A program made the translations under genes and the position numbers. 33,005 nucleotides of DNA from Candidatus Woesebacteria bacterium (GTDB lineage: Bacteria > Patescibacteriota > Microgenomatia > UBA1400 > UBA12108): assembly GCA_018060845.1 (NCBI GenBank), contig JAGOVG010000009.1, positions 1 to 33,005 of the forward strand, read 5' to 3'. The notes under the pieces were generated by a model, which saw only the letters and a list, made by a program, of their open reading frames with translations, had not been told where the DNA came from and searched no databases. Numbering within the stretch: position 1 is the first letter of the stretch; every line of letters starts with the position of its first letter. Positions 29,619-33,005 of the stretch are shown in pieces.

Positions 29619-30547
29619 AAAAAGACGGTGATATTCTACCTAATAAATTTGATCCGATTGACGTAAGCGGAGCAATACTTAGAGCACAAGGGAATAAATC
29701 TATTCTGCCAAATGTGCCGATTAAACCTCCCAACGCCTTGGTTGATTCGCAAGACACTCATGATTTAAAACCATCAGATGTTGTAACTGGGTATGGTGGC
29801 CCATTGATGCCTGAAAGTGCCCAATCAGCTCCTCCCGATTCAGCTGAAACCGAAATAGAAACTGAGAACGATCATCCTGGAATAGGGGAATCGAATATTG
29901 TCCTAGAACTACGCACAGAGGCCTCAAGTGTTGCAGCGAAGATAATCACTGCTCTGTACGGCTATTCTCTTGGTTTGCATGGCCAACTTCCACCAATCTA
30001 TACTCAATATCACTTAACACTCGGTGAAGGAGAAATATCACAAACTCTAGCTATGTCACCTGACAATAATGTACCACCTGAGTTAATAGATAATATGGTA
30101 GATATACTCGATCCACTCTTATTAGAGCAAGATGATGTACAAGTAGAAGATGAAGTAAAATCTATATTTTTGAAAGCTACTCAAAATGCATTCAGGACTA
30201 GTACTGGTTTTAGGGCAAGAGAAATAATTGAGCATTCTCAAATTGCTAACCAACCAGATGTTGATGCTACATCGACAGACAGAGCGCTAAATATACTAGC
30301 CCAGCTAGTAGCTACGGAAGATGTAATTGTTTCAGATTTACGACTCACCAATTCAGATTTATGGGCAATAATTCTAAGAATTCATTGGGCGTCTTCATAT
30401 CAAACAAATACACCCGAATTCCTCTTAATGCTCGGAGAAAATATACGCAAACTTAGATTAGAGTATTCGTCATCATCTCCCAAATTGATCAATATTGAGA
30501 GTGTAATGTTGTGGGCAGAAAAATTATCTTTCCAAAAAAGTGAATAG
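29615..30547 (+). CDS. hypothetical acidic protein
   Basis: A 310-residue protein that I do not recognise. Residues 1-100 are polar, Pro- and Asp/Glu-rich and probably disordered; residues about 105-310 are helical. There is no signal peptide or membrane helix. It overlaps galE by four bases (ATGA) but its DNA is visibly richer in A/T than the upstream genes, and it begins a run of orphan genes that reaches the rRNA locus. No function can be proposed. Confidence 0.6.
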   Translation: MKKDGDILPNKFDPIDVSGAILRAQGNKSILPNVPIKPPNALVDSQDTHDLKPSDVVTGYGGPLMPESAQSAPPDSAETEIETENDHPGIGESNIVLELRTEASSVAAKIITALYGYSLGLHGQLPPIYTQYHLTLGEGEISQTLAMSPDNNVPPELIDNMVDILDPLLLEQDDVQVEDEVKSIFLKATQNAFRTSTGFRAREIIEHSQIANQPDVDATSTDRALNILAQLVATEDVIVSDLRLTNSDLWAIILRIHWASSYQTNTPEFLLMLGENIRKLRLEYSSSSPKLINIESVMLWAEKLSFQKSE

Positions 30548-30583
30548 ATATGCTTAGTTAATTTAAGCGGGATCATGAAAATT

Positions 30584-31105
30584 TTAGAGTGATGATTCTA
30601 TACCGATAGCTTGAATTCTTTTAATCTCTTTCCCCGCTTTCGCCCAAACAGTTACTTCATTAGGGTTATGCGTTAATATTTCCCAGGGCTCTTTAATAAG
30701 CTCACCACCCAAAGATATCCACACCCGATGTCCTAGACCAAATGCAGTGGCTATGTCGGATTCTACTGGGAAAACTGAGGCAAAGCCAACCAATTCCCTA
30801 TCTTCAAGTTTATGCTCAAGTCGCTGCTGATGTAGTGCATGTTCGTATCCTCCACCAAACTCACCTCGATCTAGTTCCACAGCTGCATCGACAAATCTGG
30901 TTGCACCATCTTGTCCGGGAGGTGCCAGTAGCGCTAGTAAATTATTTTCTGCAGTTCCGTAAAATTCTCGTAAACACTCGCCTATTTGATGAGCCAATTC
31001 CAATGGCATCTCTAATCTGGTTAGCTCCGTTAAGTCCTGAAGCGGTTCTATACTCTCAACCTCAACCTTCCATAATTTCTCTTTACGATCGCCTGGTCCA
31101 GTCAT
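30584..31105 (-). CDS. hypothetical protein
   Basis: A 173-residue soluble protein, acidic, of unknown family. The C-terminal half (GHRVWISLGGELIKEPWEILTHNPNEVTVWAK) looks beta-rich. I place the start at ATG 31105 rather than 31150, because a consensus TATAAT (31113-31118, minus strand) ends seven bases before it and the longer frame would run through the promoter. It converges with the acidic hypothetical gene; the 36 bases between them hold only a weak hairpin. Confidence 0.55.
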   Translation of the reverse strand: MTGPGDRKEKLWKVEVESIEPLQDLTELTRLEMPLELAHQIGECLREFYGTAENNLLALLAPPGQDGATRFVDAAVELDRGEFGGGYEHALHQQRLEHKLEDRELVGFASVFPVESDIATAFGLGHRVWISLGGELIKEPWEILTHNPNEVTVWAKAGKEIKRIQAIGIESSL

Positions 31106-31112
31106 AACATTT

Positions 31113-31118
31113 ATTATA
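31113..31118 (-). promoter_or_regulatory. -10 box, leaderless hypothetical gene
   Basis: Consensus TATAAT on the minus strand, seven bases before ATG 31105. It sets the start of that gene. Confidence 0.6.
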
Positions 31119-31199
31119 CTACCAGTTTTGTATGTTGCTAATGACGCCATCAGAAGGAGTTTTCTTATGCGGTCCGCTTATTTGTATCATTTTAAAAAG

Positions 31200-31208
31200 T
31201 GATATATT
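31200..31208 (+). promoter_or_regulatory. extended -10 promoter, leaderless
   Basis: TGA plus TATATT ends six bases before ATG 31215. Confidence 0.55.
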
Positions 31209-31214
31209 AAACAT

Positions 31215-31457
31215 ATGCCAACAACTATTAATCAGGCTCAGATCCAGCAGTTTAAGCAAGCAATGAAAGAAGTCTTAGTTGATGAACTAGGTGAAAACTA
31301 TAAGGATCGTTTCGACCGCATCGAAAATAATACGGACATGGCATGCAAGATAGCCAAAGATACCCAGGACAAACACACAATAACACAATCAAAAGTCGAT
31401 CGTCACGACCATGAGATTAAAAAGCTACAAACCTTTGTTGGTTTTGCAGTGGCTTAG
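31215..31457 (+). CDS. small coiled-coil hypothetical protein
   Basis: An 80-residue, charged, helical protein. Residues about 30-72 have heptad character (DRFDRIENN...KVDRHDHEIKKLQTF), similar to short coiled-coil proteins common next to mobile or orphan genes in CPR genomes. The family function is unknown. It is the first gene of a likely two-gene unit with the HEPN-like protein, whose ribosome binding site overlaps its stop codon. The pair recalls the size of toxin-antitoxin modules, but no active-site motif supports that. Confidence 0.6.
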   Translation: MPTTINQAQIQQFKQAMKEVLVDELGENYKDRFDRIENNTDMACKIAKDTQDKHTITQSKVDRHDHEIKKLQTFVGFAVA

Positions 31458-31466
31458 GAATTAGCC

Positions 31467-31934
31467 TTGAAAAATAGTCCCAATCAAGATGAATGTACTC
31501 CCATCGATTGGTATATGAGATCACAATGGTTTATTGGTGCGGCCAAGCTAATTACAGAAAAAAATTCAGATTCTAGCGACGGACACGCCTTAGATGACAA
31601 CCTCATATTGTGTATAGACGCTTACAATGCCGTACCATGGCTATCATTTATGGCAATTGAATGTGTCTTAAAAGGTCTATTGATCTATAAGAAAATAGAT
31701 ATAAAAAATTTGTACGAACACAATATACTCAAACAGTACACGCTTGCTAAGCAGTACTACCCAGATATTTCCAAAATTGACGACTTAGATTTTTTTGTCA
31801 CCAAATATAGTGATTTAGTATTTAGTAAATCTGGAGGAAATCGCTATCCTGATAAGCCCTATGTCCCCATTTTTAGTCACTACTGGGAAGTGGCGGAAAA
31901 TCTACGTAGGTTCGCAAAGTCACAGAAAAACTAA
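31467..31934 (+). CDS. HEPN-like domain protein
   Basis: A 155-residue helical protein whose core (about residues 45-105: LCIDAYNAVPWLSFMAIECV, LKGLLIYKKI, LYEHNILKQY) resembles HEPN domains, helical bundles often found in RNases and nucleotidyltransferase partners. The catalytic RxxxxH motif of HEPN RNases is not visible, so activity is doubtful. The start is TTG 31467, with AGGAA (31456-31460) six bases upstream; an in-frame ATG at 31515 is the alternative. It shares a unit with the coiled-coil protein. Confidence 0.5.
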   Translation: MKNSPNQDECTPIDWYMRSQWFIGAAKLITEKNSDSSDGHALDDNLILCIDAYNAVPWLSFMAIECVLKGLLIYKKIDIKNLYEHNILKQYTLAKQYYPDISKIDDLDFFVTKYSDLVFSKSGGNRYPDKPYVPIFSHYWEVAENLRRFAKSQKN

Positions 31935-31940
31935 GCAATA

Positions 31941-32462
31941 TTAGTTAACTAAACTATATACATTCCCATCTTTTTTTAAAACGAAATCTAATTCATTAGA
32001 ATTAATCTCATTGGGAATAGTTGCGTACCCATGAATCGGTTGGTATACACAAAAACTATGATACAAAATACTCTCAGCTTCTATCCCACCACCTATTTTA
32101 GTTAAATTTAACCTCTTCTGTTCAGCAATATTAACTAGTTCTCTCTTCCATTCACTACTACCTGACACTAGCCAATCATATCTATTTGCATCTGCGACGT
32201 ACAAGTATCCAGTGCTTGGTATAACCAAGCCCTCTTGGTTATCTGCGAAAAAGACTCCATAAGTTCCATATTGACCTGGCTGAGGTTTTAGAACGGTGTC
32301 AGGCTTGTTAGATTGTTTACCTCTAATAATCCATCTTCCAGGACCGTTCTGGTTACCTTTTCTCAGTTCGATACCTAAGCTGCTCAAACTTTCACGAAGG
32401 CTAGAGCCAACAATTTTTCCATCTCCTCTAGATTCGTGATCAAACCCTCTAAACCAATTCAT
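31941..32462 (-). CDS. hypothetical protein
   Basis: A 173-residue protein of unknown family with a conserved-looking N-terminus (RGFDHESRGDGKIVGSS) and many Gly/Trp/Tyr residues. No membrane helix is seen. The frame is open upstream to 32591, but that extension would translate a terminator hairpin; TACAAT (32472-32477, minus strand) ends nine bases before ATG 32462 and fixes the start there. It is divergent from the attenuator-like RNA and converges with the HEPN-like gene. Confidence 0.5.
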   Translation of the reverse strand: MNWFRGFDHESRGDGKIVGSSLRESLSSLGIELRKGNQNGPGRWIIRGKQSNKPDTVLKPQPGQYGTYGVFFADNQEGLVIPSTGYLYVADANRYDWLVSGSSEWKRELVNIAEQKRLNLTKIGGGIEAESILYHSFCVYQPIHGYATIPNEINSNELDFVLKKDGNVYSLVN

Positions 32463-32471
32463 ACGAGAGGT

Positions 32472-32477
32472 ATTGTA
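32472..32477 (-). promoter_or_regulatory. -10 box of the minus-strand hypothetical gene
   Basis: TACAAT on the minus strand, nine bases before ATG 32462; divergent from the plus-strand promoter at 32492-32500. Confidence 0.45.
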
Positions 32478-32491
32478 CAACACAGTTTTTC

Positions 32492-32500
32492 TGTTACAAT
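32492..32500 (+). promoter_or_regulatory. extended -10 promoter of the attenuator-like RNA
   Basis: TGT plus TACAAT forms an extended -10 box. Transcription should start near 32507, at the first base of the CCTAC stem described in the next entry. Confidence 0.55.
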
Positions 32501-32506
32501 AACCTC

Positions 32507-32574
32507 CTACATATGTGAATACACCTTGCCGGTCGTAGGATAAGGGCTTAAAACCCTCCTCGGCGGGTTTTTTT
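32507..32574 (+). ncRNA. attenuator-like leader or small RNA upstream of 16S rRNA
   Basis: A short transcript can be drawn from 32507 to a strong terminator. Two exclusive folds are visible. In one, CCTAC (32506-32510) pairs with GTAGG (32535-32539) and the terminator AAACCC/GGGTTT forms. In the other, GCCG (32528-32531), AGG (32537-32539) and AGGG (32543-32546) pair with CGGC (32561-32564), CCT (32558-32560) and CCCT (32554-32557), which destroys the terminator. This is the logic of a riboswitch or attenuator. I do not recognise the class. It could also be a stand-alone small RNA. Confidence 0.45.
32551..32574 (+). terminator. intrinsic terminator
   Basis: AAACCC (32551-32556) pairs with GGGTTT (32565-32570), with an inner C-G pair and a short loop, and is followed by T residues to 32574. 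On the other strand the same hairpin is followed by only four T. Confidence 0.75.
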
Positions 32575-32690
32575 GTGTCTACATATAACAAATCTAGAAC
32601 ATTAAAAATAGAATAACTACTAATCTAATTTGTAAAGAGATGGTAGTACCGTTTTTTTCTTTTTGAGTAAATCTTTTTAGGATTTTAAAC
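32575..32690 (+). other. A/T-rich leader before 16S rRNA
   Basis: The stretch contains a possible -10 box TAGAAT (about 32609-32614) without a good -35 box, and a T-rich run near 32652-32664. These may belong to the rRNA promoter and precursor, but the processing-stem partner would lie beyond the window. No ORF is credible. Confidence 0.35.

Positions 32691-33005
<315 letters not shown>

Follow-up and report, generated by a model that had tools for sequence, protein, structure and literature searches.

The window, that is, the whole stretch of 33,005 nt analyzed here, is an entire contig of a Microgenomates (Patescibacteria) genome of about 0.98 Mb, and its end (33005) falls inside a 16S rRNA gene. 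The features found at this end of the contig are listed below, each with the evidence that defines it.

32473–32500, plus strand: predicted rRNA leader promoter (sequence; spacing and extended -10 the same in G001–G004)
32513–32518, plus strand: start-stop mini-ORF, ATG TGA (sequence; enrichment across the class; test for an in-frame stop)
32528–32540, plus strand: putative antiterminator strand U1, GCC.GTCG.AGGA (fold; cognate versus swapped complementarity; bistability)
32544–32546, plus strand: GGG, which in the antiterminator fold faces CCC (32554–32556) on the 5′ side of the terminator stem (fold)
32550–32574, plus strand: intrinsic-terminator-like hairpin, AAAACCC-TCCTCGGC-GGGTTTT, and T tract (sequence, fold, class-wide pattern)
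32598–32609, plus strand: boxA-like sequence, AACATTAAAAAT (comparison; class-wide position; 3′ of the terminator)
32634–32651, plus strand: family-invariant AAAGAGATGGTAGTACCG, AAGTGGTAGGAA-like elsewhere, probably a pre-16S processing stem (comparison)
32691–33005, plus strand: 16S rRNA gene, truncated where the contig stops (Rfam RF00177, 246 bits)

The promoter combines an extended -10 (TGTTACAAT, 32492–32500) with a -35-like TTGTAC (32473–32478) across a spacer of 16 nt. In relatives the -35-like element reads TTGCAC or TTGCGT, and both the promoter and the 5′ segment are kept within the family of the window. Transcript starts were taken as 7 nt past the -10 box, which would place this one at about 32507. 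An initial annotation of this DNA had reported the extended -10, the terminator, and a competing fold, all of which we found in the places it gave; it did not contain the mini-ORF ATG TGA or the boxA-like sequence between the terminator and 16S. It also had the transcript begin at a first stem, CCTAC/GTAGG; the predicted start may lie inside this stem. The stem itself is partly supported: G004 retains it, G002 has a shorter version, G003 carries changes in both arms (TTTAC/GTAAA), and in the congener G001 it is broken.

A divergent minus-strand promoter (TTGTAA-16-TACAAT, 32472–32499) overlaps the rRNA promoter. The gene on that strand has its ATG at about 32462, just 9 nt after its own -10, so the mRNA made from this promoter is probably leaderless. 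About 2.9 kb of the window (29619–32485) are missing from G001, where a galE-like gene stands directly before the rRNA promoter; this stretch holds a weak HEPN-like ORF (31467–31934, E 0.05) and genes without a Pfam match.

The hairpin, which ends in a T tract here as in all leaders used, would terminate transcription. In the competing fold, 32528–32546 pairs with 32554–32568, and U1, which begins at +16 of the ATG, has the terminator loop and the start of the 3′ arm as its partners: GCC (32528–32530) with GGT (32566–32568), GTCG (32532–32535) with CGGC (32561–32564), and AGGA (32537–32540) with TCCT (32557–32560). The GGG at 32544–32546 pairs with the CCC listed above. This competing fold is the predicted minimum free energy structure of the 68-nt RNA (-18.6 kcal/mol), 2.7 kcal/mol better than the best terminator-containing fold of the window leader (L001, -15.9). 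Such an energy is not unusual (z -1.38, with 21/200 shuffles equally good), so the case beyond chance rests on comparison and not on energy.

We compared the 16S upstream regions of 171 distinct loci of the Microgenomates class. A first set of 111 loci was exploratory, and a second set of 60 was gathered after the mini-ORF idea arose and scored with a detector fixed before its sequences were read. The detector, which is blind to the mini-ORF and to U1, calls a leader when a promoter with a score of at least 9 is followed 30–95 nt downstream by a hairpin and a T tract. This arrangement was present in 43/111 regions of set 1 and 33/60 of set 2, against 0–2 in shuffled whole regions; these leader counts, like the shuffle and swap counts given below, ignore kinship and tree structure, and a single family (f29) makes up 20 of the 60 set 2 regions. 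At 53 loci drawn from other classes in the phylum, promoter and mini-ORF occurred together once versus 1.7 expected, showing no enrichment. As far as these sequences indicate, the arrangement looks confined to, yet widespread within, the Microgenomates class, with families f10, f11, f16, f19, and f25 either lacking the mini-ORF type or having other leaders.

Other leader elements were also observed in the class. In family f10, of the same order as the window, the rRNA transcript opens with a different leader RNA, AAGATNAAGTCC-loop-GGGATACTNATCTT, at 10 loci (L016, L021, L059, L060, L067, L078, L080, L087, L089, and L197) and at none outside the class; in some loci it is followed by a hairpin with a T tract and then boxA (L060, and L061/L074 with a variant). 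Family f30 has the motif GTTAACTTCCC-loop-GGGTAACAAC in its 16S leaders (L098, L104, L105, L166, L167, and L176), which in L098, L166, L167, and L176 lies 3′ of the mini-ORF attenuator. Family f11 (L017, L027, L030, L031, L052, and L077) shows a different, two-promoter layout, with a tiny hairpin and T tract (ACCGATTTGG..TTTCGGT) just after one promoter and a second extended -10 (TGTTAAAAT) immediately 5′ of boxA.

The ATG of the window mini-ORF lies 12 nt after the -10 hexamer, at the 5′ end of the transcript. With a mini-ORF defined as an ATG 6–16 nt past the -10 and an in-frame stop within 6 codons, we detected one in 33/43 leaders of set 1 (2.8 expected from dinucleotide shuffles) and in 28/33 of set 2 (3.2 expected). 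In 56 of these 61, the ATG stands 9–12 nt past the -10, within a few bases of where transcription is predicted to begin. Among 62 first ATGs scored for a stop within 6 codons, the stop was in frame in 61, compared with 9 for the +1 frame and 21 for the +2 frame. The mini-ORFs themselves read ATG TGA in the family of the window, ATG TAA/TGA/TAG in f29, ATG ACA TAA in f8, f5, and f14, ATG AGT GAC TAA/TAG/TGA in f21, and ATG AGA AAA GAC TAG in f30, and ATG AAT TGA is another variant among the families. This pattern indicates that selection acts on the reading frame of the mini-ORF, not on one motif. We found no regulatory codons for an operon product: 25 of the 61 mini-ORFs have no sense codon past the start, and the others, with one (17), two (11), three (6), or four (2), differ from each other. 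Since sense codons are absent or few and not conserved, such an ORF should report ribosome initiation or termination and not one amino acid.

Most mini-ORFs have no Shine-Dalgarno sequence, and their AUG is nearly at the transcript start. Across 40 genes of the window family, a -10-like box lies 6–14 nt before the first ATG in 11, against 6 at a control distance, and a Shine-Dalgarno-like site precedes 8, which hints weakly that leaderless initiation occurs in this family. In f36 the ATG is not at its usual place; by eye, L107 has AAAGGAG and then GTG AAT TAA farther downstream. In another member of the window family (L034, from G003), ATG TGA is replaced by CTG TGA and the terminator is weak, its stem being down to about 3 pairs, possibly a joint decay of mini-ORF and terminator.

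The pairing of U1 was analyzed in 65 leaders from 16 families by taking the stretch from about +13 to +26, counted from the A of AUG. This stretch pairs with its own terminator loop, extended by three bases into the 3′ arm, at -6.2 kcal/mol, versus -3.9 with the loops of other families (Wilcoxon, p = 1.9e-8). Swaps within families agree (p = 4.7e-5), and windows outside about +13 to +26 of the same 65 leaders showed no cognate preference. Examples of U1 and loop are ACCAGTTT/AAACTGGT (L022), TGGCCAAGG/CCTTGGTC (L008), CGTCATTG/CAATGGCG (L114), GACCATTg/GAATGGTC (L142), TGTCTC/GAGACA (L006), and CTTGATCAAG/CTTGGTCGA (L026). In the 52 leaders with a clear duplex, the first paired nucleotide of U1 has a median position of +17 (IQR 15–19), close to the expected edge of a ribosome placed on the AUG. 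By eye, the GGG-like segment also seemed to pair convincingly with the 5′ arm of the terminator, yet this pairing had no cognate specificity and a small effect, and it is not counted as covarying.

We then expressed the balance of the two folds as dE, the antiterminator minus the terminator energy. Its median over the 65 leaders is +1.5 kcal/mol, against +5.8 with shuffled spacers, and 25/65 leaders have a dE of zero or less, compared with 6% of shuffles. Shuffling U1 only removes nearly all of this bistability (mean 5.1), while shuffling the segment next to the hairpin has little effect (2.3). As the terminator is the slightly more stable fold in most leaders, antitermination would rest on cotranscriptional kinetics. 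This comparison gives good support to the proposal of the initial annotation that two exclusive folds attenuate an rRNA operon. The alternative pairing holds up in relatives, where U1 covaries with the loop and bistability exceeds that of shuffles.

The effect of a ribosome was modeled crudely by keeping the RNA unpaired as far as position +16 or +19, counted from the AUG. This raised the median dE of the 65 leaders to +3.6 and +5.5, respectively, so in the model a bound ribosome would favor termination. The modeled shift is largest for L008, L131, L154, and L157. For the window, dE is -2.7 when free, -4.5 with the block to +16, and -2.2 with the block to +19. The modeled effect is small because most of the window's U1 lies beyond +19, and it is the main weakness of the argument for this copy.

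The boxA-like sequence reads TTCTTTAACAAC in G002 and TACTTTAACAAT in G003. Such a sequence follows the terminator in 54/65 leaders, directly after the T tract in L008 and L029, and precedes it in 5/65; of the genomes tested, 20/20 have nusB. A promoter-like site lies between terminator and 16S in 5/65 leaders, no excess over the 3.1 expected, and the downstream candidate that the scan gave for the window (32585–32614) is not kept in G002 or G004. Because boxA follows the terminator and no promoter excess precedes 16S, transcription of the rRNA most likely begins at the promoter 5′ of the terminator and has to get past the latter to reach boxA.

From the anatomy and its conservation, the selection for an in-frame stop, the covariation of U1 with the loop, the near-isoenergetic folds, the position before boxA, and the absence of an excess of other promoters, we propose that the primary rRNA transcript carries a transcription attenuator read by the ribosome, a reading to which we give a probability of about 0.55. 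RNA polymerase would start a few bases 5′ of the AUG, with the stop codon following almost immediately, and a ribosome, probably a 70S as on leaderless mRNAs, would load on the nascent leader and occupy the mini-ORF. Its leading edge would reach U1, which begins about 15–19 nt past the A of AUG. Once masked, U1 would be unavailable to the loop and 3′ arm of the terminator, so the terminator would form and transcription would end after about 60–70 nt, before boxA and 16S, with little rRNA made. When free ribosomes are scarce, U1 would pair and block the terminator, and RNA polymerase would read through; boxA would then be transcribed, a Nus complex may load, and rRNA would be made.

The same leader could be an rRNA attenuator on which another signal decides, such as a protein (a ribosomal protein or Nus factor), the NTP level, the speed of RNA polymerase, or temperature, with the mini-ORF serving, for example, RNA stability or clearing of the 5′ end. 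The two folds exist without a ribosome, the modeled ribosome effect in the window is small, and f10 has a different front element before its hairpins, all of which fit this idea; it nevertheless leaves the strong selection for an in-frame stop and the fixed spacing between AUG and U1 unexplained, and we consider it rather unlikely. The sign of control could also be opposite, the ribosome on the mini-ORF aiding read-through, for example by coupling to RNA polymerase or, in the window family, by blocking an anti-antiterminator fold formed by CCTAC/GTAGG. The compensatory changes of this stem in G003 are consistent with that, as is the block to +16, which favors the antiterminator in L001, L004, L114, and L026. 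Over all 65 leaders, however, the block shifts the balance to the terminator (from 1.5 to 3.6 and 5.5), and no 5′ stem is common to the families, which makes the opposite sign decidedly unlikely.

Promoter, RNA of about 68 nt, and terminator do form a complete unit, and f11 has a second promoter-like box right before boxA, as would be expected if a separate small-RNA gene preceded, by chance or as insulation, an rRNA operon with its own downstream promoter. Against this, the leaders show no excess of such promoters, the candidate in the window is not conserved, boxA directly follows the T tract in several genomes, and a stand-alone terminator has no need of a competing strand; a separate gene is very unlikely. 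We give almost no credence to the idea that the hairpin is not a terminator but serves as a leader helix in the processing or assembly of pre-16S rRNA: the E. coli rRNA leader helices hA/hB do have assembly roles (PMC10250234), but the T tract after the hairpin in all leaders used, the position before boxA, and the competing strand speak against it.

The genes relA/spoT were found in 2/20 genomes, being missing from that of the window and from 17/19 relatives, and in 98/372 genomes class-wide. Mini-ORF leaders are commoner without relA/spoT (53/112 versus 8/41 genomes; Fisher p = 0.003, ignoring kinship). A clean mutual exclusion is ruled out by the 8/41 relA+ genomes that carry a mini-ORF. 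That the class as a whole, with its genomes largely without relA/spoT, uses a ribosome-read start-stop pair at the 5′ end of pre-rRNA, through which free ribosomes attenuate rRNA, and that f10-type leaders substitute for it in sister families, is a tentative extension whose chances we put slightly below even.

How bacteria match rRNA synthesis to ribosome number is an old question. Outside E. coli this feedback is said to be still unexplained (PMC8388888). Regulation in Patescibacteria is little known, and translation is expected to play a part in it (PMC11665869). If our reading is true, the ribosome would be the sensor and rRNA transcription the output, giving a very short feedback loop in about 70 bases and a compact part for sensing free ribosomes.

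The initial annotation had called the logic riboswitch-like. A ligand aptamer is not borne out: beyond mini-ORF, U1, and hairpin, we found no core common to the families, and the conserved upstream element is the start-stop mini-ORF. Rfam gave no riboswitch or other family match at gathering level, just chance matches at lax thresholds, and for seven relatives the sole non-rRNA match was to Phe_leader and fell below threshold (L022, 25.8 of 55 bits, E 0.88). In the open literature searched, no rRNA operon under a leader-ORF or start-stop attenuator was found, and a start-stop site joined to a terminator on pre-rRNA appears to be new.

Like the trp/his/phe leader-peptide attenuators, this leader has, by sequence, a promoter-proximal intrinsic terminator within the operon, an exclusive antiterminator, and a short ORF placed so that its ribosome would mask the antiterminator, though weakly in the window copy. 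Unlike them, it belongs to an rRNA operon, its ORF is a start-stop or 2–5 codons without regulatory codons, and its AUG stands almost at the transcript start, mostly without Shine-Dalgarno. As in rRNA leaders with boxA/NusB-S10 antitermination, a boxA-like sequence lies 5′ of 16S and nusB is present. The E. coli rrnB "tL" leader hairpin, once termed an attenuator, sits after boxA. In E. coli, start-stop sites, an AUG followed by a stop, are reported to have a potential regulatory function (cited in PMC11955535). Short uORFs on which ribosomes are held at the start codon are known from resistance genes, and a four-codon uORF acts in one for tetracycline resistance, in line with stalling at the start codon (cited in PMC12121999). 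Such start-stop and very short uORFs share the AUG and immediate stop with our leaders, whereas here the pair is carried by pre-rRNA and combined with a transcription terminator, in an arrangement conserved class-wide. Ribosome feedback in E. coli, which is promoter-based (ppGpp, NTPs), serves the same physiological task; the control proposed here would act instead on elongation, through the nascent leader.
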